Below, one piece after another: positions 1,186 through 52,594 of a stretch of 64,000 nucleotides of DNA. Each line of letters begins with the position of its first letter. Position 1 is the stretch's first letter. A program made the translations under genes and the position numbers. This DNA comes from Pseudobdellovibrionaceae bacterium. Lineage in GTDB: Bacteria; Bdellovibrionota; Bdellovibrionia; Bdellovibrionales; Bdellovibrionaceae. The notes beneath the pieces are model-generated. The model was not told the origin of the DNA. It searched no databases and was given only the letters and a program-made list of their open reading frames with translations. The stretch is from NCBI GenBank assembly GCA_019637875.1, contig JAHBUW010000005.1:1-64000 (forward strand). Reading direction: 5' to 3'.

Positions 1186-1287
1186 GGGTGCATCTATTTC
1201 ACGATTTTTTTTCGCGTTTGTCGACTGGTCCAGGACCTCTGTCCCTGAATGTTTTCGACCTAAAACCGAAAAGAATCCAAGAGCTTG

Positions 1288-3258
1288 ATGATGTTACAGC
1301 AGTTTGATTCCAAAGAACGATCGATCCTATTGGGAGCCCTCTTGGCTCTCGTCGGATTGCTTTTTCTTTTGTACGACGATTCGCTGTTGATGGATTCACT
1401 CAGTGAACGTGACATCACTCCCATCGGACAAGTCGTTCCCATCACGAACGACGTTCGTCACAAGCAGAATCAAGATTTCCAATGGCGCAACGTACGACGC
1501 ACGAGAATTCTGGGCTGGGGCGACGGCGTATTCACGGGCGCGAAATCTTCGGCGCGGGTTGAGCTGAACGACGGAAGCGAAATCACGCTGCAGGAAAACT
1601 CGCTCGTGGTCTTCGTGCCGGGACAGAAAGATCTGACCCTGGATCTGAAATTCGGTAGCGTGAAATCGCAGATCGCCGACAACAGCTCCCTCATGATTCA
1701 AGTCGATGGGGAAACGCTGAGCCTGAACGGTCAGAACGCGGTCGTCGAAATCGGCAAGAAGGCCGGTGAAGACGTCGCGATCAAAGTCGTCTCGGGTGAA
1801 CTGAACATCGAAGACAAAAACAAAACCAAACAGCGCGTCTTGGCCGGCGAAACCGCGGGCGTGAAACCGACACCCACGCCCAAGCCGACCCCGAAACCGA
1901 CTCCGGTCGCGACGCCGCCCCCTACGCCCACTCCGACTCCCACACCGGTCCCGACGCCGACACCCACCCCCACACCGGAACTGCCCGCGCAAGTCGGTAT
2001 CGAGTGGACCCAACCGCGCAACCGTTCGCAGTACCAGATCAGCCTCGATGCGGACGGGAATCCCTCGGAAAAAGCGCGCGTGCAATTCAACTGGGTCATC
2101 CCCGCGAACAATCCCGTCAAGGGCGTCGGCTACGACATTCAGGTCGCGAAAGATCCCGCCTTCAAAACACCGATGGTCGATCATGGCATTCGCAAGTCGC
2201 AGGCCCGCTTCGAGTTCACGACCGAAGGAAAATACTACGCGCGCGTCCGGGTGAAACTGGATCCCGAATCCGACGAGGCAAAAACCGTAAAGACACCTTG
2301 GAGTTCACCGCTCGAGGTGCAGGTGAAGTTCCGCGAGGCCCCGACACTCGAGGCCCCCGTGCTCGCCAAACCGCAACAGGTCATCGACGGTGACGCGCAG
2401 AAGTCCGCGGAGCTGCAGTGGTCGCGCGTCAAGGGCGCGAAAAATTACCGCATTGAATTTTCGAAGAGCGCGACCTTCGGTCCCGACGTCGAGAAACAAG
2501 ATCTCGATGACAACAAACTCAACTTCCGCCCGAATCAAGGCGGTCAAGTCTACTACCGCGTGCGCGGCTTGACGAAGGACGGGAAACCCGGTCTGCCGTC
2601 GATGGTGGGCTCGGTCGAAACCAGCATCTCGACACCCGTGCTGAAACCGATCGACAGCGTCAAGACGTTGGGTCAACGCCCGAACGATCCGCCGTCGCAG
2701 GTCGAACTCAAGATGCTGTGGTCGAAAGTCACGATCGCCCAGGGCTACGAAGTGAACATCTCGCCGAACGCGGATTTCCGCGACCCGATCACGTTCAACA
2801 CGAAGGCGACCAAGGGCGCGCTCAAGGTCACCAAACCCGGAACTTACCATGTTCGGGTGCGCGCCCTGAACGGTGTCTCGGAACCGATCAGCCCATACTC
2901 GAACGTCGAGCAGTTCATCTATGAATATAAGATTCCGCTCGGTTCGCCGGTTTTGAAGGAACCGATGAACAATGTGACACTTTTCTTCCAGGACAAAGAC
3001 ACCGTCTATTATATGGGGTGGACGAAAGTCCGCGAAGCCACCCGCTATCAGGTCGAAGTGTCCACGGACGAGGCGTTCAAACGACCGCTCATTTCAGTCC
3101 GGACCGACGATCTCCGATATTTAGTAAGACAAGCGATGCCCGCCGGTAAACTCTATTGGCGCGTCAAAGCGGAAAACGACGAACGCGAATCGCATTGGAG
3201 CGAGGTGCGTTCGCTCACCATTTTCAACGGTCGTAAGGCCGAAGGAAACGGCAACTGA
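1288..3258 (+). CDS. FecR-domain protein with Pro/Thr linker and fibronectin-like repeats
   Basis: About 656 residues. One membrane segment near residues 12-30 anchors the protein. A FecR-like domain follows at about 60-160 (GDGVFTGAKSSARVELNDGS, then LQENSLVVF). A striking linker built of PTP/KPTP units covers about 195-232, and then several fibronectin-type-III-like beta repeats recur roughly every 100 residues (the W-T-K-V / YR-V-R pattern) to the C-terminus. FecR domains sense or transmit signals across the periplasm, and the repeats suggest binding to the cell wall or another protein. The start is TTG-ATG-ATG at 1285/1288/1291; an AAGAG upstream best fits the later ATGs. Its stop overlaps the next start by one base (TGATG), so the two are translationally coupled. 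Confidence 0.85.
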   Translation: MMLQQFDSKERSILLGALLALVGLLFLLYDDSLLMDSLSERDITPIGQVVPITNDVRHKQNQDFQWRNVRRTRILGWGDGVFTGAKSSARVELNDGSEITLQENSLVVFVPGQKDLTLDLKFGSVKSQIADNSSLMIQVDGETLSLNGQNAVVEIGKKAGEDVAIKVVSGELNIEDKNKTKQRVLAGETAGVKPTPTPKPTPKPTPVATPPPTPTPTPTPVPTPTPTPTPELPAQVGIEWTQPRNRSQYQISLDADGNPSEKARVQFNWVIPANNPVKGVGYDIQVAKDPAFKTPMVDHGIRKSQARFEFTTEGKYYARVRVKLDPESDEAKTVKTPWSSPLEVQVKFREAPTLEAPVLAKPQQVIDGDAQKSAELQWSRVKGAKNYRIEFSKSATFGPDVEKQDLDDNKLNFRPNQGGQVYYRVRGLTKDGKPGLPSMVGSVETSISTPVLKPIDSVKTLGQRPNDPPSQVELKMLWSKVTIAQGYEVNISPNADFRDPITFNTKATKGALKVTKPGTYHVRVRALNGVSEPISPYSNVEQFIYEYKIPLGSPVLKEPMNNVTLFFQDKDTVYYMGWTKVREATRYQVEVSTDEAFKRPLISVRTDDLRYLVRQAMPAGKLYWRVKAENDERESHWSEVRSLTIFNGRKAEGNGN

Positions 3259-5171
3259 TGGATCTGAAGATTTTCGATACGCTGCTCGAACCCACGTTCG
3301 TCCTCGATCAAGAGGGCCGGGTTCGCTATTGCAATGAGCCCGCAGCGCTCATTTGCGATCAAAGCGTGCGGAAACTCATGCGCTCCCGTCCTTATATTAA
3401 GGAGCTTTTCCGCTTCACGGAAAACATCGAGGCGCTGAACGACATCACCCAGGTCCAGGACGCCTCGCCCTACCAGGAAACCTCATTCGAAATGGACGGC
3501 GGCAAAACCGGTCGCGTGCAGCTGACATTGCAACCCCTGCCGCCCGATCCCGAAGACGGATCGCCCCGGTGGCTGGTGTTTTTCCGTGACGTGACTCTTG
3601 AAGAAACGCTCCAGCGCAAATACCGCGCGGAACTCGAGAAAAAAGAGCACGTCATCCAAGCGCTCGAAGAGGCGCAGAAAAAACTCGAAGACTACTCTCG
3701 CAACTTGGAAAAGATGGTCGCCGAGCGCACCGCGCAGTTGAGCGCGATCAACTCGCAAATGAAGGCGCTGCTCGACAGTTTGGGTCAGGGTTTCCTGATC
3801 TTCGATCGACAAGGGCGCTGCCTGGAAATCGCCTCCAAAGCCTGCGAACACATTTTTGAAACCGATCCGCGCGGCAAAAGCATCCACGAGGTGCTGCGCC
3901 AATCCGAAAACGAAACGAAAGCCTTCCAGCGTTGGATGGCGACCGCTTTCGCCGAAATGCTCCCGTTCGAAGACCTGGCCCCGCTGGCCCCTCCCAAATA
4001 TGCGCACAGCGGTTACCGGTCGATCGATCTGGGGTATTTCCCGTTGCGCACCGAAGGCGGCGCGATCGAAGGTTTGGTCCTCGTCGGCACCGACGTGACC
4101 GATCTGGTCCGCGCGCAAAAGCAAGCCGAGTTGGACCGCGCGCAATCGAAGATGGTCCTCGAACTCGTGAAAAACCGCCGCCAGGTTCTGGGCTTCATCC
4201 GTGAAGCGGAAGCGATCATCGGCGAAATTCATGAACAACTCGAAGCCCCCGAGCCCGCGTATGACGTCACCTTCCGCGCCCTCCACACGCTGAAGGGCGG
4301 CGCCGCGAGCTTCTCGGTGCAGGATCTGGTCGACCGGATTCACGAAGGCGAAGAGATCTTGGGGCACTGGCACGAAAGCCCCTCGGCCGAAAATCTATCG
4401 CCCTTGCATCGCCAAGTGGGCCTTATCGACGAAAGTTTCCGGCAATTCCTGGCGAATACCGACGCGATCCTGGGTTCGCGCGGCGAGGCCGGCGGCGCGA
4501 CCCGCGAAGTGCGGATCGAAGAGCTGCGTAAATTCTATGACGGGCTCAAAACCCCCGTGATGCGCACCCGCTTCTTCGAAGGCTTTCTGACCGAAAAATC
4601 GGCGCAAGTTTTCGCGCATTTCAACGACACCGTGCAGAGCGCGGCTTCGCAGCTGGGGAAAGTCGTCCTGCCGCTTTCGATCGACACGCCCGACTTCGCT
4701 TTCTGGCCGGAGCCCTACCAACGCTTGATCGCAAGCCTCGTGCACGCGTTCCGCAACGCCGTCGATCACGGCATCGAAACGCCCGACGTGCGCGAGCAAC
4801 GGGGCAAAAACCCGGCGGGACGTATTTCACTCACGCTCGAAAAGAACGGTGAACGTCTGCTCTTGCGCATTCAAGATGACGGTAACGGCATCGATCCGTC
4901 GAAAATCCGCGACCGCTTGGCCAAAAAAGGTTTCGACACCAGCGTCGAATCCGACGCGCAGGTCATCCAACACGTTTTCGATTCCGAGTTTTCGACACGG
5001 GATCAAGTGACGGCCCTTTCGGGACGTGGCGTGGGTATGGATGCGATCAAACACACCGCGAACGAACTGGGCGGTCGGGCGTGGGTTACCTCGGTCCCCG
5101 GACAAGGCACCGCGTGTATGGTCGACGTTCCGTGGCTGACGGACGTTCCCGCTTTCCTTAAAGTCGCATAA
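3258..5171 (+). CDS. CheA-like signalling protein: PAS, HPt and HATPase domains
   Basis: 637 residues with no membrane segment. An N-terminal PAS-like region (about 5-115) is followed by a coiled coil (115-170) and a second PAS-like region (about 175-285). An HPt-type helical domain contains HTLKGGAASF, with the probable phospho-histidine at 343. The C-terminus is a CheA-type ATPase: FRNAVDHGIETPDVREQRGK (N box), DDGNGID (G1) and GRGVGMDAIK (G2). It resembles CheA P1 plus P4 but lacks the CheW-like P5 domain and an obvious P3 dimerisation domain. It probably phosphorylates its own HPt and then a receiver; the CheY-like gene that converges on it is an obvious candidate partner. The start overlaps the FecR gene stop. 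Confidence 0.85.
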   Translation: MDLKIFDTLLEPTFVLDQEGRVRYCNEPAALICDQSVRKLMRSRPYIKELFRFTENIEALNDITQVQDASPYQETSFEMDGGKTGRVQLTLQPLPPDPEDGSPRWLVFFRDVTLEETLQRKYRAELEKKEHVIQALEEAQKKLEDYSRNLEKMVAERTAQLSAINSQMKALLDSLGQGFLIFDRQGRCLEIASKACEHIFETDPRGKSIHEVLRQSENETKAFQRWMATAFAEMLPFEDLAPLAPPKYAHSGYRSIDLGYFPLRTEGGAIEGLVLVGTDVTDLVRAQKQAELDRAQSKMVLELVKNRRQVLGFIREAEAIIGEIHEQLEAPEPAYDVTFRALHTLKGGAASFSVQDLVDRIHEGEEILGHWHESPSAENLSPLHRQVGLIDESFRQFLANTDAILGSRGEAGGATREVRIEELRKFYDGLKTPVMRTRFFEGFLTEKSAQVFAHFNDTVQSAASQLGKVVLPLSIDTPDFAFWPEPYQRLIASLVHAFRNAVDHGIETPDVREQRGKNPAGRISLTLEKNGERLLLRIQDDGNGIDPSKIRDRLAKKGFDTSVESDAQVIQHVFDSEFSTRDQVTALSGRGVGMDAIKHTANELGGRAWVTSVPGQGTACMVDVPWLTDVPAFLKVA

Positions 5172-7415: not shown

Positions 7416-7460
7416 AAAAACAAAAAACCGGAAAGGCTCCCTTTCCGGTTTTTGTTTTTT
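7416..7460. terminator. Bidirectional intrinsic terminator between dcd and the EF-hand lipoprotein gene
   Basis: A perfect inverted repeat CCGGAAAGG / CCTTTCCGG (7428-7436 and 7440-7448, three-base loop) is flanked by A-tracts on the left and T-tracts on the right, so it can end transcripts from either side. The minus-strand gene's stop codon (7459-7461) lies at its edge. Confidence 0.92.
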
Positions 7461-10449
7461 AGCGCGAGCGTTGATCGCCGCGATCTTCCTGTTGGATTTG
7501 TTTCTTCGCGGCCGCGTTTCCTTTGCGGACGCTGTCGGCGATGAATCCCAGAATGTTCGAGATCCGGTAGCGATCGGCCGAGATCGGCCACTTGTCCTCT
7601 TTGTTCACCCAGTTCGACGCGAAGTCGAACTTCTCCCAGAAGGTTTCCGGCGGTTTGCCGTTAACGAGGATATAGGCGTAGGCCGCCTTGACGTAGCTTT
7701 CGTCATCCAGATTCGAGACCTTCTTCAGCAGGGTTTGGAACATCGGATACGCGCGCATCGCCTCGGTGCGATCCAAGACCGCGTTGCCATCGCGATCCCA
7801 CCGGCGGAAAAGCGATTCGATGTATTGAATCACGTGGGGCACGAGCGAAAGCTCGGTCGACTTCGCGATCCGCTGGGCATTGGGCACCCAACCGGACGCA
7901 CGCAAGACCTCGTCGAGCAAGGCGATATTGCGAGCCTTATCCCCTTGGAAAAGTTGGACCATCCGGGGCATCGCCGCGAAGGCCTTGCCCGAGCGACGGC
8001 GCATCACTTCCAGCGCGCAATCGACACCGTAGTAAGGGGTCTTCGTATTTTTCACGCGGCAGTGCGTGTGGATATCGGCCTTCATCTGACCGTAAACCGT
8101 TTGTCCCGACAGAATGAGGATCGCGAGCGTCCCCGCCTCGTTGTAGTCGAGGAAGTTGTCCCCGTCGGAATAAGGCGTGAAGAGGTTTCCCTCGAGGAAA
8201 CGGCTGGTCGCGAAGGTCGTATTGGTCGGATCGATGAGGCCCATGCTGACGAGTCCCGGCCGGAACTCCATGAAGGCGCGTTGGAACTGCTCTTCGGTCA
8301 GTCCATGCAGTTTGTCCGCCGACGAGGTGCTGCCGTAAGCGCGAATCGCCCAACGTACGCCCGCACGCAGCAGATTGATCCGGTTCAAAGACGACTCGGA
8401 GTACGCGATCTGCGAGCCCGCGCCCAGGAACAGACGCCCCTGGGCGTCGAACGCGAGCGGTACCGGGCCTTGCACCAGACGCATCATCTCGGAATCGCCC
8501 AGGCTGTCGTTCTTCGCGAAGGCGCGCTGAAGGTCGCCGTGGCTCAGGCGGGGGTCCGCCGTCAAAAGCGCGTCCATCTTCTTTTGCACCGAGAAGTAGA
8601 CTTTCAGTTCGTTGTTCACGACCTGCAGCCCCACCGGGCCCAGGCCCGTTTGGTATTTGCCACGCGCGCGATCCGCCGGCGGCGTGAGCGCCCGCTTGAT
8701 CAGAATCGGGATCAAATCATTGGCCGCGTCGGCGGGGAAGACCTCGGGCCAATAGCCGGCGGCATCGAAGGCTTTCACCGCCGATTGCAGCTCGCTGACC
8801 GAGATCCCTTTGGCTTCGCCGCGACCGCGGGCCCGGAAGGTCGCTTCCAAAACGTCGCTGAGTCCCCGCACCCAAATCTCGAACTGGGGAAGGCCCGGCG
8901 AACGGAAGAAAGAAGCGTCTTTCAGGAAATATTCATACTCCAGCAGTCGCAGGTAAGCCTTGCCGAGGACTTCCGTCAAAAACGGCCAGTCCGCCTGCTT
9001 CACGATGCTCCCTTCGGTCGCGAGCACCAAGGCCTTCGCCTTCAGGGCGAGGGGCATCAGCTTCTGGATCCGGGGCGAGAAGGCCTCTTCGGGCTTCTTC
9101 GGCGGGAACGCGAGCTCGAAGGATTCGATCAAGCGACCGAAGTCCCGCAGGTCATAGTCGCTTTCCAGCAGCGGCGAGAGCACCTGCATGAACTCGAGCA
9201 CGCCTTTTTCGGCGCCTTCAAATTCGATACGGGCCTGGGAATTCGGCAGCAGCTCGGGCTTCCACTTCCCTTCCAGGATCAGCGAGTTTTTGAGTAGCAG
9301 GTTCGCGAGCGTGCGGAAGTTTTCGAGTTTCACGCGCGCCCGGCTGAGGTCCGCGGGTGTCAGGGCCGAGATCTCGCCGCCGAAAAGGAGCTTTTTCACC
9401 TTCAAGATTTCGTCGACGAAGGACTCGGGAATTGTGAACTGCGGGAAGACGTCGGCCACCGCACGCAGTACGGAGATGATCTCGTCCCGCTGCAATTGCG
9501 CGCTCGCTTTTTGCGTCAGGATGTCGCCGACCATGCCGAGCAGATCGTCCACCGAACGGAAGACCAAGATCAACTCGGGGTCCTTTTCGCGGTGGGGGTT
9601 GTTCTCGAAGAAATAGTAGTAGCGCAGGTACTGCAGGTAGCTGCGGGCGCCCAGGCCCCCGAACTTCCGCCAGTCCTTCGGTTGGATAACGGCTTCCTGC
9701 GTGCCCGTGAGCGCGCCCTTCAGGCGGGTCAGAAGCGGCAGCATACGTTTCAAATTCTTCGTGAAAGACCAATCGGTCTTAAAAACCTTCTGGAGCTCTT
9801 CCAGAAGCACCACGAAATTCTGGATTTCGTACTTCTGCTGCTGAGGTTCGATCAGCGCGGCGAGTTTTTCGACGCTCGCGGTGCCGACGGCCTTCGCGGT
9901 TTCAAAACGGGCCAGATCGGCTGCGAAGTTTTTGTCGCCGGTCACTTTCCAGTTCATGGACAAAAGCTGCATCTGCGGCAAAAGCTCCAGGCTGAGCGCA
10001 CGCATCTGGCGTGCGAACTCACGCAGCTTCGTCAGCTCTTCGCGGGTCATGAGCTGGTTATCCCCACCGACGAACAGCTGCTTGAAGCGCATGATCTCGA
10101 CCAAAAGGCGGTCGTTGATTTTGACGTCAGGATCCAGGAAGTAGTCCTCGAAGAAACGCGCCACTTCGCGCGCGGTATAGTGCCGCGGATTTTCACCGCG
10201 AACTTTGCGCTCGAAAAGCCCCAGGGCGTCGTCGAAGCAGGTCCACGCCCCCGAGACTTTGTCCGCGGGCGCGCTGCCGTCCATGAAACCCACGATGATC
10301 GGGGTCAAACCCGAAAGGCAACGGGCCTCTTGACCGAGTTTGGTCTCGGGCGCGGCCGGTTTGGCGGGATCCTCTCCCCAAGGCACCGTACACGAGGTCA
10401 GAAGTGAAAGCGAAACAATCGCCGCGCTCAGCTTGAGCTTAGAAGACAT
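7459..10449 (-). CDS. Large lipoprotein with EF-hand-like calcium sites
   Basis: 996 residues. A lipoprotein signal peptide ends in the lipobox LLTSC (Cys about 20). The body is mostly predicted alpha-helical with recurring LEN/LFG segments and no transmembrane helix. Near residue 885, DRDGNAVLDRTE fits the 12-residue EF-hand loop; near residue 760, SDGDNFLDYNE is a second, weaker one. I do not recognise the family. Its start overlaps the end of the upstream outer-membrane protein gene by 11 bases, so the two are co-translated and probably form an envelope complex. It ends inside the terminator at 7416-7460. Confidence 0.85.
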   Translation of the reverse strand: MSSKLKLSAAIVSLSLLTSCTVPWGEDPAKPAAPETKLGQEARCLSGLTPIIVGFMDGSAPADKVSGAWTCFDDALGLFERKVRGENPRHYTAREVARFFEDYFLDPDVKINDRLLVEIMRFKQLFVGGDNQLMTREELTKLREFARQMRALSLELLPQMQLLSMNWKVTGDKNFAADLARFETAKAVGTASVEKLAALIEPQQQKYEIQNFVVLLEELQKVFKTDWSFTKNLKRMLPLLTRLKGALTGTQEAVIQPKDWRKFGGLGARSYLQYLRYYYFFENNPHREKDPELILVFRSVDDLLGMVGDILTQKASAQLQRDEIISVLRAVADVFPQFTIPESFVDEILKVKKLLFGGEISALTPADLSRARVKLENFRTLANLLLKNSLILEGKWKPELLPNSQARIEFEGAEKGVLEFMQVLSPLLESDYDLRDFGRLIESFELAFPPKKPEEAFSPRIQKLMPLALKAKALVLATEGSIVKQADWPFLTEVLGKAYLRLLEYEYFLKDASFFRSPGLPQFEIWVRGLSDVLEATFRARGRGEAKGISVSELQSAVKAFDAAGYWPEVFPADAANDLIPILIKRALTPPADRARGKYQTGLGPVGLQVVNNELKVYFSVQKKMDALLTADPRLSHGDLQRAFAKNDSLGDSEMMRLVQGPVPLAFDAQGRLFLGAGSQIAYSESSLNRINLLRAGVRWAIRAYGSTSSADKLHGLTEEQFQRAFMEFRPGLVSMGLIDPTNTTFATSRFLEGNLFTPYSDGDNFLDYNEAGTLAILILSGQTVYGQMKADIHTHCRVKNTKTPYYGVDCALEVMRRRSGKAFAAMPRMVQLFQGDKARNIALLDEVLRASGWVPNAQRIAKSTELSLVPHVIQYIESLFRRWDRDGNAVLDRTEAMRAYPMFQTLLKKVSNLDDESYVKAAYAYILVNGKPPETFWEKFDFASNWVNKEDKWPISADRYRISNILGFIADSVRKGNAAAKKQIQQEDRGDQRSR

Positions 10450-11944
10450 AGGTAAGCCCTCCGTAGACCCGGTCGTTCTGACGGTAGTAGTTCAGGAAAC
10501 GGGTGTCGCCGTTCGTGACCGAGCTATCGTCCACGCCGAGCGAGTCCCCGCCCACCACCGCGATCCACGATCCGCGATGGTACGAGACTTCCATATTCCA
10601 CTGCGAACCGCGCTGATCGAAATCGCGCAGGTATTTGAGCCCCAGATTCCAACGGGCGCTCAGGCCCGCTTTGCCTTCCACGGTCACCGCGTTCGTGTAG
10701 TTCAAGCGGTGCGGGATCAGGCTCGACTGCTGCTGACCGGCGGCATCGTAATCGAGCGTCGGCTCGGCGTCGGCCTTCAGGTAAGCGAGGCGTCCCTGCA
10801 GCGGCAAGGTCGTGAACGGCACGCGCAGATTGTGTTGATCCCAACGGATCGTCGTCGCGCGCAGCGGGCGCGGCGACTGCTGGATGAAGTCCGTGGCCAG
10901 GCCTTCGCTCGAGCGCGGGTTGTCGATCTTCGCGGGCGTCGGGCGATCTTGGACGTGGCTCAAAACGACTTCGCCGCCGTCGAATTGCAGGCCGAGATCG
11001 AGCCCGGTCACCAAGTGCCGCTGGGCCAGGGGGCGGAGTTCGACCTCGCCGCGCGCCTGCTGATCGGTGGCGGTGCGGAAGTTCGCATCGTATTTGAAGA
11101 AGAGCGTGTTGATCGCTTTGTCCGCGACGGAAAGACGCGCCCAGGGACCGGTGTCGGTACGGCCGACACGGATCTGACCGCCGATCGCGGGCTGGCTGAT
11201 GAGCTCTTGAATCTGCGGGATCTCCAAGCGGTAGTACAAACGTGTGGGACGGCCGATGATCTCGGACTGCGTGGGGATCGAGCGGAACCAACGCGACTCA
11301 GAGGTGATTTCGCCGTTGCGATCCGCGACCTCGGGGGTCATGGTCGGAATGAATGCGGGAGAGAAAAACGCCTGCGCCTGCAGGTAAGTGCCGTTCGCCG
11401 CCAGGAAAAGCCCCATGAGTCCCTGCTGCTGAATGCGCAGAGCATCCATGGCGAACGTCGGATTCCACAGGTTCATATTCCAAACGCGGTCGGCGTCGTT
11501 CCACGCGGTCAAGTGACGACCCAAGCGCAGACTGAATTGGCGCGACGGACTCGTCATCGCGACCGAGGCTTCGTAAACCGAGATGTAGCTGTAGTTCAGA
11601 TTCAGCGAGCGACCGGCGGCCAGATCCATTTGCGCACTGAGGGTGTCGCCCTCGTTCAGCGAGGTCCCCGCTTTAAGCCCCGCCTCCATCATGTTCGACT
11701 GCGAAAGATTCTCTTGGCCTTGCAGCAGCGTCGGATACTGCATGGATTCGAAACGCACGTAAGCATCCGCGCCCGTGGCGTCGCCGGTGACTCCGGCTTT
11801 CTCGAATTGCAAACTGCTGGATGAAGTGAGACCCGCGGGTTCCGCGTGCGCGAAGATCGAGAGCAGACTGAGGCTCAGCAGTGCACCGGCGAAGCGCTGG
11901 GCTTGACCCGTGAAACGGCTGACTTTTAACGACGTCTGGCTCAA
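10439..11944 (-). CDS. Outer-membrane beta-barrel-like protein
   Basis: About 501 residues. A signal peptide (FAGALLSLSLLSIFAHA) is followed by many alternating amphipathic strands (for example AYVRFESMQ, FSLRLGRHL, RLYYRLEI) and a C-terminal aromatic residue (GGLTYVF), as in outer-membrane barrels. The ATG at 12019 has no ribosome site; a TTG at 11944 follows AAGAAGGGGGCCGA and gives a proper signal peptide, so I choose it. It heads a two-gene unit with the overlapping EF-hand lipoprotein. The specific function (porin, exporter) is not readable from the sequence. Confidence 0.75.
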   Translation of the reverse strand: MSQTSLKVSRFTGQAQRFAGALLSLSLLSIFAHAEPAGLTSSSSLQFEKAGVTGDATGADAYVRFESMQYPTLLQGQENLSQSNMMEAGLKAGTSLNEGDTLSAQMDLAAGRSLNLNYSYISVYEASVAMTSPSRQFSLRLGRHLTAWNDADRVWNMNLWNPTFAMDALRIQQQGLMGLFLAANGTYLQAQAFFSPAFIPTMTPEVADRNGEITSESRWFRSIPTQSEIIGRPTRLYYRLEIPQIQELISQPAIGGQIRVGRTDTGPWARLSVADKAINTLFFKYDANFRTATDQQARGEVELRPLAQRHLVTGLDLGLQFDGGEVVLSHVQDRPTPAKIDNPRSSEGLATDFIQQSPRPLRATTIRWDQHNLRVPFTTLPLQGRLAYLKADAEPTLDYDAAGQQQSSLIPHRLNYTNAVTVEGKAGLSARWNLGLKYLRDFDQRGSQWNMEVSYHRGSWIAVVGGDSLGVDDSSVTNGDTRFLNYYRQNDRVYGGLTYVF

Positions 11945-12127
11945 TCGGCCCCCTTCTTGAGCTGGCGCTCTAATGAAGAGAAAAAACAAAGTCGCGTCAA
12001 CACTTTGGCTTCGCAGCATACCCGATGCATCCCGTCGAATCGAGGCGAAAACGGCCCCTGGTGACAGGTCTCAAAATTCGGACTAAGTTCGCCCTAAACC
12101 CTCGATTTGAGTGGATTAGGAGAGCCC

Positions 12128-16501: not shown

Positions 16502-18511
16502 CTAGAACTGATAGCCCAAACCCATCGTGTAGTAGATGGAGGTGAATTGGAAACGCAGGCGGCGCACGAGGGCCGAATCGACGTCCTGGTTCTGATCCAG
16601 GTTACGGATACCGAAGCCGGCCTCGCCGAAGAAACTCTTCGTCCACATGACCTTCCCATGGAAGTTGAGCGCCCAGTTGCCGCCTCCCGACGGGATTTGG
16701 TTGAGCGAGGCCCCTTGCGAACCCGAGAGCGTCGGGTAATAGACGAAATCCATGTCGACCCATTTCGGGTAACGCATGATCGGCACCTTGTTCAAGAGGT
16801 CGTCGAAAAGACGCGGCATCGAGCGCGCCCAGAAGAAACCCGCGCCCAGCATCTTGGGTTTGAACATGTCGTAAACGTTTTCGTTATACCCCATCATCAG
16901 ACCCCAGCTCTCGTCCCGGCCCCAAAGGCCCGGGCGCAAACGATACTTCAGGTCGATCGTGGTGTTGCGCATGAGCGCCGTCGTGTTGGAAATTTTAAGC
17001 GGCGTCAGGGATTGGTAGTACTTCGTCGCCAAGCCCCAACGTTGACGGGACCAGGTGGCGTTCGACCAACCGAAGAGGTCCTCGAACCAATAGTTGAAGG
17101 CGCCTTCGGCATTGATCAGCAAATTTCCACCCGAGCCCAAGATCGCCGAAGAGCGGAAGCTGAGTTCGCGTGGATAGCCCTTGTACATTTCGTAGTAGGC
17201 CTTGAACGTCTCTTCCCCGTCTTGAACTTCGACGTGCGCACGTTTCATCTGCCCGCGCTCTTCATGTTTGAAGCGCCACAAAAATTCGTCCGCCGAATCG
17301 CCGTCCATCTCGAGTGAGTTCTCTTTGGAACTGACTTTCGTTTTGTCCGCGCGGATCCCGTAAACCTTCGCGTCGTTCACGTAAGTGGAATCGGGGGTGC
17401 GGTAGTCGATGAAAGGACGGCTCGTCTCGCGCGGCAGACGCGTGATCTTAAACACCTGTTTGAAAAGGCCTCCGGAGGGACCGGGGAAGTACAAGGTCGT
17501 CAGACCTTTCGGCGCATCCACTTCCCAGAAGCGGCGGAAGTCCCCGATGGTTTCCTGCCAGCGGAAGGTCCGCATGATGAAACTCTCTTCGAGAGGATTC
17601 AAAATCCGGTGCGCCATCGAGGGAGCCTGCCCGAAACCGACGATTTTGATGTTCTCTTTGTCGCCGTGAACGAGCTCGACGATTTCGATCTTCGGCGGAC
17701 GGGTCACGAACTCGTAGATGAATCCGTTATTCAGCTCGGCCAGAAACTGCACCGGCCCCCGTCCCTTCAGGCGACGACGCGATTTCAGCGGTGACTGCTT
17801 CTGGAAACTGATGATCCGGGCGGGTTTCTTGGGCTCGGGAACATCTTCCAAATGCCACTTCCGATTGCGGTTCTTCAGCCCCATATACGCCGAACATAAA
17901 CGGGTCTGTCCTTGATCCGTTTGCCGCGAGATACACACGCGGAAGTTCTCTTGGCTCTCGGCCAGCTCCGGCGCGTTCGTCAGGAAATCACGAAAGATCC
18001 ACGAGGACGCCAGAAGCGGATTGGCATCGAGGTCTTCCTTTTTGACGTTCGCCTGCATCCGCGTGCGCAGCTCCGCCGTGGTGGCGATCCAGTTTTGCAC
18101 TTCGGATTGGGGAATCGCCGACTGCCAAAGCACACGCCCCGATTGGCCGATCGCCTCCAGGTAGCCGTCGGGGATCAGGGGCAAAGGCCAAGACAGAAGA
18201 AGATTCACGCCCCGGCGCAGATCCTCGCCGGCGTAGGGAGCGGCGACCGGGCTGATTTCGTCCAGGGTCCCTACGCGCATCTGAAAGCTCTGCGCGCTGA
18301 TGACGGTGTCCCCGATCCTCAATTCGCTTTCGCTGGTCAAATCGTAATCAAGCTCAAGTGGCAGTTGAGTCACGCCGTCGCCAATGACGTCGAAACGCAG
18401 CGGGACCGTGTAATCCTCGGCTCCCTGCGCCAATGCGGTTGCGGGGGCCCCCATAAGCGCACCGCAAGCCAGCACCATCATTGTGAAAAATGAAGAAAAA
18501 AACTTCGCCAT
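16502..18511 (-). CDS. Exported protein with C-terminal beta-barrel-like region
   Basis: 669 residues. A signal peptide (FFTMMVLACGALMGAPATALAQG) is followed by a mixed, beta-rich region of about 400 residues and a C-terminal half rich in amphipathic strands (WGLATKYYQSL, TTIDLKYRLRPGLWG, WALNFHGKVMWTKSFFGEAG). It ends in YTMGLGYQF, a terminal-Phe outer-membrane signal. I do not recognise the family; an outer-membrane protein with a periplasmic N-terminal domain is the most economical reading. It is divergent from the ferredoxin-reductase-like gene. Confidence 0.75.
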   Translation of the reverse strand: MAKFFSSFFTMMVLACGALMGAPATALAQGAEDYTVPLRFDVIGDGVTQLPLELDYDLTSESELRIGDTVISAQSFQMRVGTLDEISPVAAPYAGEDLRRGVNLLLSWPLPLIPDGYLEAIGQSGRVLWQSAIPQSEVQNWIATTAELRTRMQANVKKEDLDANPLLASSWIFRDFLTNAPELAESQENFRVCISRQTDQGQTRLCSAYMGLKNRNRKWHLEDVPEPKKPARIISFQKQSPLKSRRRLKGRGPVQFLAELNNGFIYEFVTRPPKIEIVELVHGDKENIKIVGFGQAPSMAHRILNPLEESFIMRTFRWQETIGDFRRFWEVDAPKGLTTLYFPGPSGGLFKQVFKITRLPRETSRPFIDYRTPDSTYVNDAKVYGIRADKTKVSSKENSLEMDGDSADEFLWRFKHEERGQMKRAHVEVQDGEETFKAYYEMYKGYPRELSFRSSAILGSGGNLLINAEGAFNYWFEDLFGWSNATWSRQRWGLATKYYQSLTPLKISNTTALMRNTTIDLKYRLRPGLWGRDESWGLMMGYNENVYDMFKPKMLGAGFFWARSMPRLFDDLLNKVPIMRYPKWVDMDFVYYPTLSGSQGASLNQIPSGGGNWALNFHGKVMWTKSFFGEAGFGIRNLDQNQDVDSALVRRLRFQFTSIYYTMGLGYQF

Positions 18512-48189: not shown

Positions 48190-48891
48190 ATGGGTATGCT
48201 CGATCGTTACCGGAAAACCGGCGGATTTTTGCAACTGGCGGTGCTACTTGAAACTTCGCCCGCTTCGAAACAAGAGAAATTCCTAAGCCTGATTCGCGAG
48301 GAATCCCCGAAGTGGGAGAGCGAACTCAAAAAGCGCCTGCTGAGTTTCGAGCGCGTTTTGAATTGGAATCCCGAACATCTTGGCGACATCTGGCCACGCC
48401 TGCCGGACAAGGTCGTCGCGACCGCCGTCTGGAACCTGCCCCCGCCCTTGAAAGAGAAATTCATGGCGAGCATTTCGGTCGCGCTCAAACGCCGACTGGA
48501 TGAGGCCGCCACAATGAACGCGCCGACCGACGGCGAAATTCTGGGCTGCCGCTTGAAGATCCTGCAAGAGATCCGCACCATGACGACCAACGGCATGATG
48601 CGTATGGATAAACTCGATCCCGAACTGGTGATCCCCGACGGCATCGAAGGTGAACTGAATGACAATCCCTTCAGCGCCCCCAGCGCGCTCGAGAAGCAGG
48701 TCCTCGCGACGCCCGAGCCCTCGGCGGCGGCCGGCGCGAGTCCCGGAACCAGCCCCGCGGCGATTCAACTGGTGGAAGAGATGAAAGAACTCCGCCGCAA
48801 ACTTTTGTCTGCGGCGGCGGAAATTCAGACTTTGAAATCGGAAAATCAATCGATGAAGGAACGGCTCGAGCAGATCAAAAAGATCGCTTAG
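48190..48891 (+). CDS. FliG C-terminal-domain-like protein with coiled coil
   Basis: 233 residues. Residues about 40-145 follow the helical pattern of the FliG middle/C-terminal domains: WESELKKRLLSFERVLNWNP, then LPPPLKEKFMASISVALKRR and EILGCRLKILQEIRTMTTNG, matching the ikk-mfxFexi / ekflsnms / aqxxivxxirxlexxG pattern of FliG. FliG is the rotor protein that contacts MotA. Here the N-terminal FliF-binding domain is absent, and after a Pro/Ala/Ser linker (about 165-192) the protein ends in a coiled coil (VEEMKELRRKLLSAAAEIQT onward). No flagellar gene is nearby. It is probably a cytoplasmic adaptor; the homology needs profile confirmation. Confidence 0.6.
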   Translation: MGMLDRYRKTGGFLQLAVLLETSPASKQEKFLSLIREESPKWESELKKRLLSFERVLNWNPEHLGDIWPRLPDKVVATAVWNLPPPLKEKFMASISVALKRRLDEAATMNAPTDGEILGCRLKILQEIRTMTTNGMMRMDKLDPELVIPDGIEGELNDNPFSAPSALEKQVLATPEPSAAAGASPGTSPAAIQLVEEMKELRRKLLSAAAEIQTLKSENQSMKERLEQIKKIA

Positions 48892-48898
48892 GGCCCGC

Positions 48899-51112
48899 TT
48901 ACAGGGCCTTTCCGTCGAACGTCACCGACTGCACTTTTTGCGTCGGATTGTTCTTCTTGATCTCTTTCGAGTAGGCTTCGCACTTCGCCTTCGTTTCCAC
49001 TTTCGATGAAACCGAAGCTCCCGACTTGAAGGTGACTTTGCAGACCTTCTTGTTGTCGACGGGCTTCTGTTCGTAGATCACGGTCCCGGCGAAAGTCACT
49101 TTCGTGATGGTTTGACCCGGGTTGTTCTTTTTGATCTCGGCGTGGTTTTTATCGCAAGCCGCGCGATCTTTCACGTCGGTCGCCACCGAGGCGCCGCTCG
49201 CGAAGAAGATCTTGCAGGTCTTTTTGTCCTCGGCCTTTTTCTCGTAGATCACTTTTCCGTCGAACGTGACTTTCGAGATCTCGTTCTGCGGATTGTTCTT
49301 TTTGATTTCTGCGTGGTACTTTTCGCAACCCGCTTTGTCCTTCACGTCCGTGGCCGCCGACCCGCCGCCCGCGAAGAAGACCTTACAGACTTTTTTGCTG
49401 TCGGGGACTTCTTCTTTGACCTGTTTGATGATCTTGCCGTTGAATTCACATGTCACGGCCGCGCCCGGATTGTCTTTGATCGCGCTGTCGCAACGTTTTT
49501 TCGCCGCGTCGAGCGTGATGTCCGCGATGCCTAAGCCGTTCGAGACCGAACCTTTGGTGATCGTGATCTTCAGGATTCCCATATCCGAGGTATCCAGGAA
49601 CACCATCTGACCATCGAAGGTCACCGAGCGGATTTTTTGCTTCGGATTGTTCTTTTTGATTTCGGCGAAGTAAGCCTCGCACGCTTTACGGTCCGCGACT
49701 TTCGAAGCCGACGATGCGCCCGAGTGGAACGTGACTTTACATTCCTTCTTCTCGGCCTTGACCGCCGTGTAAAGAACCTTGGTTCCGAACGTCACTTTCG
49801 CGATCTCGTTCTGCGGATTGTTCTTTTTCACTTCCGCCCAGTACGCCTTACATTTGTCTTCCGACTTCTGTTGGCTGGCGATCGAACCGCCGCCCTGGAA
49901 CGCGATCTTACACTCTTTCGCCTTCGGCTCCTCAACGCGCTCGAACATCAAACCGTTGAAGGTACACTCGTAGCCAACGCCAGCGTCTTTCACGACCTGC
50001 GCGCGGCAGGCGATGCGGGCTTGCGCCAACGTGATGTCTTTCTTGCTTTCCAGTTTCGTCTTTTTGCCGCCGACGACTTTGTAAGCGACGTAGTCGCCCT
50101 TCACGCCCTCTTTCGGGATCGCGATTTCTTTTTTATCGAGGGTCAACTTCACGATTTCGCTTTTCGGATTGTTGGCTTTGATCTGCGCGTAGTAGCTCAA
50201 GCACTGATCTTTGTTTTTCACTTTGGTCGCCGCCGAAGCGCCACCTTTGAAGTGAACCTTACACTCGAGCTCTTTCGCGGTCTCTTTCGGCTTACAAGCT
50301 TTGTTGGTGAACGAACCCGAAAGGACGCCATCGGCACAAGCGCGGACCTCTTTATTTTCGCCTTCGCACGCCGCGCCGTCTTTCGCCTCGGCGTTTTTGT
50401 ACGCGCTCACGGTTTTACCGTGCGCCAGGGCGCCGCCCCAGGGAAGTTCGCAGGACTTTTGATCCGGGCACTCGAGGTTTTTCTTTTCCGAAGTCAGCAC
50501 CGCATCGGTACAGGTGTACTCGACGTAATCGCCGCAATCGGTGTCCGCGAAAGGCGTGTTGTCGAGCTTCAACTTTTGGATCATGCCGTTCGCGAGATCT
50601 TGTCCGTCGGGCAGTTTACAGCTGCCGGCCGAAACCACGGGGCACGAAGCCAGGCTGAAGGAACCCGAAAGTTCACTGTTATTACAGGTGCGCACTTCCT
50701 CGTCGCAAGTGCCGTCGCCCAAATCTTTGAAGGCGGCCACGGACTTACCGTGCTCCACGACCAGGCCATCCGCCCAAGGCACCGCGCAGTTTTGCGCTTG
50801 CGCAGGTTGCACTTGGCAACCCGCAAACTGAAACGAACCGCTCAGGGTTCCGTCCGTACACAGGCGATCTTCCTGTTGGCAACTTTCGCCTTCCGCCACC
50901 GTTTCGGATTGGAACGCGACGACGCTTTTACCGTTGATGACCAAAAGGCCATCTTGCCAAGGCACCGGGCAATTCAAGGCCTCGGTGTTGTTCTTTTGAT
51001 TGTCCGTACCCGCGATGTCCTGCGAAGTATTGGACTCGCAGTTCTGGAAACTGACGGTGAAGAACGCGATCCCACAAATAATCAGTGCGCGTTGAAAAAA
51101 GCTACGTTGCAT
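48899..51112 (-). CDS. Cysteine-rich modular repeat lipoprotein
   Basis: 737 residues. A lipobox (VSFQNC) makes it a lipoprotein. The mature protein is built of three repeat types. Four N-terminal units follow a C-x-PW-DG...GKSV-A...C...LSGSF...C pattern. Six C-terminal units of about 45-50 residues follow CKV-F-SGAS-AT-V-D...C..Y-AEIKKNNP....VTFDGKVIY. Two further units with ITLxxAxxxC...C-FNG are interleaved. Almost every unit has paired cysteines, suggesting a disulphide-stapled extracytoplasmic rod. No family recognised. The start at 51112 is chosen for the signal peptide. Confidence 0.8.
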   Translation of the reverse strand: MQRSFFQRALIICGIAFFTVSFQNCESNTSQDIAGTDNQKNNTEALNCPVPWQDGLLVINGKSVVAFQSETVAEGESCQQEDRLCTDGTLSGSFQFAGCQVQPAQAQNCAVPWADGLVVEHGKSVAAFKDLGDGTCDEEVRTCNNSELSGSFSLASCPVVSAGSCKLPDGQDLANGMIQKLKLDNTPFADTDCGDYVEYTCTDAVLTSEKKNLECPDQKSCELPWGGALAHGKTVSAYKNAEAKDGAACEGENKEVRACADGVLSGSFTNKACKPKETAKELECKVHFKGGASAATKVKNKDQCLSYYAQIKANNPKSEIVKLTLDKKEIAIPKEGVKGDYVAYKVVGGKKTKLESKKDITLAQARIACRAQVVKDAGVGYECTFNGLMFERVEEPKAKECKIAFQGGGSIASQQKSEDKCKAYWAEVKKNNPQNEIAKVTFGTKVLYTAVKAEKKECKVTFHSGASSASKVADRKACEAYFAEIKKNNPKQKIRSVTFDGQMVFLDTSDMGILKITITKGSVSNGLGIADITLDAAKKRCDSAIKDNPGAAVTCEFNGKIIKQVKEEVPDSKKVCKVFFAGGGSAATDVKDKAGCEKYHAEIKKNNPQNEISKVTFDGKVIYEKKAEDKKTCKIFFASGASVATDVKDRAACDKNHAEIKKNNPGQTITKVTFAGTVIYEQKPVDNKKVCKVTFKSGASVSSKVETKAKCEAYSKEIKKNNPTQKVQSVTFDGKAL

Positions 51113-51307: not shown

Positions 51308-52594
51308 ATGGCGTCTTTCACAGGTCTTAAGATTTTGTATGGACTCTTCGAACTCCCGCTGGCGGCGATCGAAATTTTCTTGCGCCTCTATCTCTTTATT
51401 CATTTCACCGAGGTCGTGAAGCTTCCGCCGTGGATGACGGGCTTAGCGCTGCTTGTGAGTTTGGCGAGCGATGCCGCCCTCGCCCCCTGGATCGGCGCGA
51501 AGAGCGACGCGTGGTTCGGCTACGGACGCGGCCGCTGGCCATGGGCGCTCGGCGGCGCGCTCGTCGCGGGCCTCGCGCTGCTCGCGATGTTTCAAATCCC
51601 CGCCGGCACCGAGCCGCATTCGGCCTTCGCGCTGCTCGTGCTGCTGATGTTGGTGCTGAACACGGGCCTCGTCTTCGCGAACGTCCCCTACGCGGCGCTG
51701 ATCGGTGACGTGGCGGAAGGTGAACCCGAGTCTTATCTGGGCTGGCGCGTGGCTTTCGGAGGGCTCGGACAATTGGCGGGCCTCGCGATCCCCGGCTTTT
51801 TCATCGCGCTGAAAGATCCGCTCGCGTTCAAACAAAGCGCGTGGATCTTGACGATCCTGCTTTTTCTTTTGGGCTTCGTTTCGTCGATGAGCCGTCCGGC
51901 CTTCCGCCCCCGTCGGGTGACGCCGATCGATCCCGACTTCGCCGTCCTGACGACAGGCGACTTCTTGCGCGCGCGACCTTTCCCCGCGTTCTTTCACGGC
52001 GCGACGCTTTGGCTTTTCGCGATCGCAGTCTTGAACGTGGCCGTCACGTTCGCGCTGTCCGTTTCGCTTCCCTATTACAAGCTGAGCCTGCGTTTGGAAG
52101 AGAACATCACCCAAGGCGTCCTTTTGACCTCGGCCCTTTTCGCGATCGCCGCGATTCCACTGTGGCTCTTGCTTTATCGTCGCTGGGGTCCCCGACGCGC
52201 TTTTCTGGCGAGCGGCCTTCCCTGGGCGGCCTTGACCGCGCTGTCGCCGCTCATCCTAGGGCTGGGCGAAAAGGCGCTCCTTTATCTTTACGGCGGGGTG
52301 CTGCTCGGGATTTTCACGGCGTCGACGGTGATCTGGGAGTGGTGGTTCGTCGCGAACGCGCGCCGAGTGGGCGCGGGACTCGGGGCCGCTTACGGCCTGT
52401 GGCGAATGATGTCGCGACTCGCGCGCGCGTTCGGAACGGCGCTCGCGGGACTCGCGCTCAGCTGGGCCGGGATTCAGGGATTCGATCCGCGCATCGACGA
52501 CCGTTTGGCCTTAATTTACGGCCCGGTCGTCGGCATCGGCATTTTGCTCGCGCTCTGGCTCGCTTACGGAAACCTGAAACGCAGCGAAACCTAA
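51308..52594 (+). CDS. Major-facilitator transporter, GPH/MelB-like
   Basis: 428 residues with about twelve membrane segments. The loop SDAALAPWIGAKSDAWFGYG followed by RGRWPWALGGAL resembles the glycoside-pentoside-hexuronide (MelB-type) branch of the MFS, where a D-P-x-x-G-x-x-S-D motif is typical. The first Asp of that motif is replaced by Ala (ALAPWIG). The substrate is unknown. The ATG follows GAAGGAATTAATCCAA. It is divergent from the repeat lipoprotein and convergent with the phospholipase-D-like gene. Confidence 0.8.
   Translation: MASFTGLKILYGLFELPLAAIEIFLRLYLFIHFTEVVKLPPWMTGLALLVSLASDAALAPWIGAKSDAWFGYGRGRWPWALGGALVAGLALLAMFQIPAGTEPHSAFALLVLLMLVLNTGLVFANVPYAALIGDVAEGEPESYLGWRVAFGGLGQLAGLAIPGFFIALKDPLAFKQSAWILTILLFLLGFVSSMSRPAFRPRRVTPIDPDFAVLTTGDFLRARPFPAFFHGATLWLFAIAVLNVAVTFALSVSLPYYKLSLRLEENITQGVLLTSALFAIAAIPLWLLLYRRWGPRRAFLASGLPWAALTALSPLILGLGEKALLYLYGGVLLGIFTASTVIWEWWFVANARRVGAGLGAAYGLWRMMSRLARAFGTALAGLALSWAGIQGFDPRIDDRLALIYGPVVGIGILLALWLAYGNLKRSET

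Follow-up and report, generated by a model that had tools for sequence, protein, structure and literature searches.

What does a 737-aa protein made of twelve small cysteine-containing units do, and how old are its repeats? These questions are raised by a gene on the (-) strand of the 64,000-nucleotide stretch of DNA that we analysed (the window). We did not find a homologue of known function for this protein. The ORF list and the translation place its ATG at 51112 and its stop at 48899, as in the original prediction, and segmenting the protein gives the four, six, and two units that were counted there (which we call A, B, and C). Their order is A1-A2-A3-A4-B1-C1-B2-B3-C2-B4-B5-B6. The features of the locus are:

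48190..48891, (+) strand: left flank, a conserved FliG_C-like gene (Pfam FliG_C, E 5.7e-9)
48899..51112, (-) strand: the lipoprotein gene, 737 aa (ORF and translation)
51038..51112, (-) strand: signal peptide (aa 1-24) and lipobox Cys25 (sequence reading)
50816..50971, (-) strand: A1, four-cysteine beta module (profile, leave-one-out, model pLDDT 94.8)
50642..50788, (-) strand: A2, four-cysteine beta module (profile, leave-one-out, A1-A2 model)
50468..50620, (-) strand: A3, degenerate four-cysteine module (cysteine spacing kept; score not above shuffles)
50294..50452, (-) strand: A4, four-cysteine module (profile, leave-one-out)
50120..50263, (-) strand: B1, two-cysteine unit (segmentation, profile, leave-one-out)
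49928..50092, (-) strand: C1, two-cysteine unit, cysteines expected in the helix and the third strand (fold inferred from the C2 model)
49766..49912, (-) strand: B2, two-cysteine unit (segmentation, profile, leave-one-out)
49598..49741, (-) strand: B3, two-cysteine unit (segmentation, profile, leave-one-out)
49403..49576, (-) strand: C2, predicted beta-beta-alpha-beta-beta unit (structure model)
49241..49387, (-) strand: B4, predicted beta-beta-alpha-beta-beta unit (model, profile, leave-one-out)
49067..49216, (-) strand: B5, predicted beta-beta-alpha-beta-beta unit (model, profile, leave-one-out)
48902..49042, (-) strand: B6, whose end is the end of the protein (model, profile, leave-one-out)
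51308..52594, (+) strand: right flank, an MFS transporter (Pfam; adjacency in the relative G011)

The protein contains 34 cysteines. All but two of these (32/34) lie within the twelve units, and the others are Cys13 in the signal peptide and Cys25 in the lipobox. Cysteines occur in even numbers in each unit: four per A unit and two per B or C unit. The lipobox is SFQNC and the +2 residue is Glu, so there is no Asp retention signal; by sequence reading alone, aa 8-25 (RALIICGIAFFTVSFQNC) have the character of a signal peptide that ends at a lipobox Cys. The description of the protein as modular and cysteine-rich, with a lipobox, is supported. The two parts of the protein differ in charge: the A part has a net charge of -16 at pH 7 and a pI of 4.5, while the B/C part has a net charge of +34 and a pI of 9.5. 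All eight B/C units are positive (+2.7 to +5.8 each), and the B/C part is 17.6% Lys and 1.5% Arg. Around the gene, no promoter or terminator stood out above shuffles.

Age of the repeats

The original prediction described the six B units as highly similar and proposed that they had expanded recently, so that copy number may vary between strains, as in adhesins. At the DNA level, the similarity did not hold up: pairs of B units are just 52-74% identical in nucleotides and 38-67% identical in amino acids. For residues that two B units have in common, the codon is also identical at a frequency of 0.52-0.77 (around 0.6 for most pairs, with a maximum of 0.77 for B2/B4), as compared to an expectation of 0.49-0.53 from the codon usage of nearby genes. 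In other words, synonymous codons are almost randomised between the units. TRF did not find any unit-length tandem array in the DNA of the gene (the sole array is a 30-base one), and the interleaved order B-C-B-B-C-B-B-B is unlike a fresh tandem run. Because the unit DNA is diverged and codon agreement is near the background, recent expansion is not supported. The closest pair of B units are neighbours (B4 and B5, 67% amino acid identity), and the number of A units does vary between orthologues of other species (15/12 and 8/6, with orthologues recognised by their tails), but we consider a recently expanded, copy-variable repeat adhesin to be very improbable. Judging from the sequence, the repeats of this protein are old, without a fresh expansion, and the similarity of the B units is best explained by selection at the protein level rather than by youth. 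The identities also suggest a super-repeat history (C1-B2-B3 versus C2-B4-B6, with B5 copied from B4), but we did not accept it, as support values in the tree range from just 28 to 76%.

The A unit and its spread

In leave-one-out profile tests, A1, A2, and A4 scored 43-51 bits, versus 10-13 bits for the best of 1000 shuffles. With a profile built from other genomes only, A1, A4, and A2 scored 55.9, 42.7, and 35.2 bits (best shuffle, 6.1). The score of A3 was not above shuffles with either profile, and A3 lacks both the PW and the LSGSF motifs. Its status as an A unit rests on its position, its four cysteines, and the C3-x13-C4 spacing, which is constant in all four A units (cysteines at 48/78/85/99 in A1, 109/136/143/157 in A2, 165/193/201/215 in A3, and 221/249/259/273 in A4).

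Searching with the A-unit profile, we found A units in 68 of 291 genomes of the phylum. A narrow pattern scan, which was our only probe of their spread outside the phylum, gave matches whose names were Bdellovibrio, Pseudobdellovibrio, or their families, except for one MAG titled 'bacterium'. Across the roughly 22 proteins that we examined, A arrays have 1-15 copies and mostly lie shortly after an FQNC-type lipobox; a minority sit C-terminally (for example, L090 and L093). The domains that follow the A arrays vary and include beta-helix-like, DUF5648, and F5/8C discoidin domains, among others. One such protein (L070, at 1285-3327 (+) on G000 C7) is a lipoprotein in which a likely right-handed beta-helix comes after five A units; the Pfam Beta_helix score is just under the cut-off. 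Another case is L081 and L088, orthologues whose A arrays have 15 and 12 units and whose tail is rich in Cys, His, and Lys.

The A-repeat proteins of Bdellovibrio and Pseudobdellovibrio (for example, from Bdellovibrio sp. qaytius, CP025734.1) have the consensus CLFNGQTIAHGQSVTAYQNSSVAYGQSCVSETRTCNNGVLSGSYQYASC. They share with our protein the four-cysteine unit (by profile match), an N-terminal array, and, in many of them, the FQNC-type lipobox. However, our protein has only four, diverged A units, while several of theirs have 5-15 regular units of 56 aa, and its B/C head was not found outside its own genome. A units had no accepted match in Pfam, NCBIfam, PHROG, or the sequences of the PDB; with E values of up to 1 allowed, none of 12 A units was assigned a Pfam family, and we did not find a description of the repeat in the literature. 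The A unit is a common yet unnamed repeat of envelope proteins in this predatory lineage, with no Pfam model and no solved relative. Naming it would aid the annotation of many 'hypothetical' lipoproteins, and it points to a repertoire of stalks with heads.

A units are predicted to be small all-beta modules with four cysteines: the AlphaFold model of A1-A2 has a pLDDT of 94.8, although two of the five models reached only 73-75. In structural comparisons, this model came closest to fibronectin type I and CCP/sushi modules (9a3z, Z 4.9; 1tpm, Z 4.8; factor H CCP, Z 3.0-3.9), which are modules of animal extracellular proteins. Like them, the modelled A unit looks like a small, all-beta bead with four cysteines, arranged as beads on a string. 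The likeness is weak (Z < 5, Foldseek E of 0.6 or worse) and there is no sequence match, and it is likely to be convergence or a common arrangement.

The B and C units

Each B unit scored 65-102 bits in leave-one-out profile tests, versus 9-14 bits for the best of 1000 shuffles. Beyond this gene, we found just two B units, at the C-terminus of one lipoprotein, encoded elsewhere in the same genome on contig C3 (L068, 2031-5294 (-), G000 C3). They were found with a profile built from the window's units only (E 2.4e-15, versus 6e-4 for the best of 500 shuffles). L068 is an 1088-aa lipoprotein with Ig-like repeats: it has repeated CPxGQ..G..NGQ..C units and Big_13-like domains ahead of the two terminal B units, one of which has a charge of only +0.7. 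In both proteins, B units form the extreme C-terminus. Directly downstream of the gene for L068 is a transposase-like ORF (257 aa, with an HFHMLVRFHH motif).

No B units were found in other genomes of the phylum among 369 searched. Scans with patterns from the B region gave no matches in species genomes, viral contigs, or plasmids (these patterns reach only close relatives, and the organism's own genome may have been excluded), nor did a scan of phages with the whole protein, whose pattern reaches close relatives only. Weak matches of the B profile in relatives were read as TPR-like, aminoacyl-tRNA-synthetase-like, or other unrelated frames. We also rejected Pfam matches of the B region to FttA KH (E 3.5e-5), DUF6970, and RA-like families as repeat-driven chance, because they cover under 40 residues of a segment that is itself repeated, and no stretch on its own passes.

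The original prediction proposed structure prediction as a check, and we modelled C2-B4-B5-B6 from an input of seven rows, every one of them from the 737-aa protein. The units were confident, with a pLDDT of 86.8, and the pTM was 0.34, which suggests that the B/C units are folded but have no fixed mutual arrangement. The same order (strand-strand-helix-strand-strand) is predicted in C2, B4, B5, and B6, with B6 cut short at the last strand. Mapping residues onto the model puts the cysteines of the B units in strand 1 and in the helix, at its first turn, and those of C2 in mid-helix and strand 3. Since the order is the same and the cysteine sites are different, B and C look like a single fold that is stapled in two different ways, and we predict that all eight units are variants of one beta-beta-alpha-beta-beta fold. 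By sequence profile, the hhalign probability for C versus B was only 2.5%, so it is the model that links them. With B and C joined, the three repeat types that were originally described come down to two predicted folds. In the B/C head, we have a test case of a domain family that is, so far, from a single genome and has two alternative positions for its cysteine pair within one predicted fold.

Structure searches with the B/C model gave common arrangements only, and no relative of known function. One C unit resembles the phage T4 antitoxin Dmd (5hy3) in its arrangement of strands and helix (VIA Z 7.4, rmsd 1.9, 56 residues), but Dmd is a lone phage antitoxin domain with 12% identity and a Foldseek E of 0.15, and the match lies within the range of common arrangements. 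Viral fold matches (such as a protein of Achromobacter phage Motura, E 4e-5) were set aside, with TM values below 0.25.

Proposed function and locus

An acidic stalk, built from a repeat that is found across the lineage, is joined here to strongly basic beads with paired cysteines, so the protein may be a sticky adhesin. We propose that it is built from a lipid anchor, a stalk (A), and a head (B/C). It would be exported, oxidised in the periplasm to form up to 16 disulphides, and anchored by lipid in the outer membrane via the lipobox Cys. The acidic A stalk would then carry a flexible chain of eight Lys-rich B/C domains, displayed outward, which could bind an anionic surface or polymer through many weak electrostatic contacts. 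Extracellular DNA and, on other cells, LPS or capsule are candidate partners. Both adhesion and display at the cell surface are plausible, and we would put the chances that this is a lipoprotein of the outer membrane, whose stalk is rich in disulphides and whose multivalent, cationic head serves in adhesion, at about even. Against this reading, some A arrays are not N-terminal stalks but lie at the C-terminus (L090 and L093), and one B unit of L068 is barely positive. It is possible, but only as a tentative proposal, that A arrays are lineage-wide, interchangeable stalks for varied heads and that B/C is a new family of cationic heads, with one fold and two alternative disulphides.

The main rival to the adhesin is a lipoprotein that faces the periplasm, whose basic repeats would act as a tether by binding the cell's own peptidoglycan or the inner surface of the envelope, with no role in adhesion. 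The positive charge could also serve to bind peptidoglycan or lipid inside the envelope, and a lipobox with a basic multi-domain array suits either side of the membrane equally well; the sequence does not decide the leaflet. However, no known peptidoglycan-binding domain was found in the protein, and the discoidin- and beta-helix-type domains of other A-array proteins mildly favour outward display; we consider a periplasmic tether to be somewhat unlikely. Alternatively, the B/C units might capture a polymer or a small ligand (such as DNA for nutrition) instead of acting as an adhesin. This would fit with the high Lys content and with a small alpha/beta fold that has no relative of known function, but the two cysteines are the sole invariant residues in the alignment of the B units, which gives no hint of a site for a specific ligand, and we think that this role is quite unlikely.

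The protein can be compared to the mosaic adhesive trimer (MAT) fibres of Bdellovibrio bacteriovorus, one member of which is reported to bind glycan (PMC10769870). In both cases, a predatory lineage would place C-terminal tips that can be exchanged on a common stalk. MAT fibres consist of intertwined trimers with a beta-prism fold, though, and are not lipoproteins made of cysteine beads, and Pfam did not identify any fibre domain in our protein.

The lipoprotein gene and the FliG_C-like gene on its left converge, and the latter was kept in 38 of the 40 genomes searched. In G011, the FliG-like and MFS genes are adjacent, about 150 bases apart, with no lipoprotein between them. In five other relatives, we did not find an A or B protein adjoining the FliG-like gene; the order AlaDH-LpxC-FliG-like is retained in four. 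In all six relatives, then, the gene is absent next to this conserved neighbour, and we think it best to regard it as cargo specific to the lineage, at a locus that is conserved in other respects. Loss of the gene in all other relatives would be a less simple explanation. Elsewhere in the window, three ORFs on the (-) strand (7459-10449, 10439-12019, and 16502-18511) encode products of 996, 526, and 669 aa, with no Pfam match at E 1e-5. The FliG_C-like product has 233 aa, which is too short for a full FliG, and it adjoins LpxC in several relatives.
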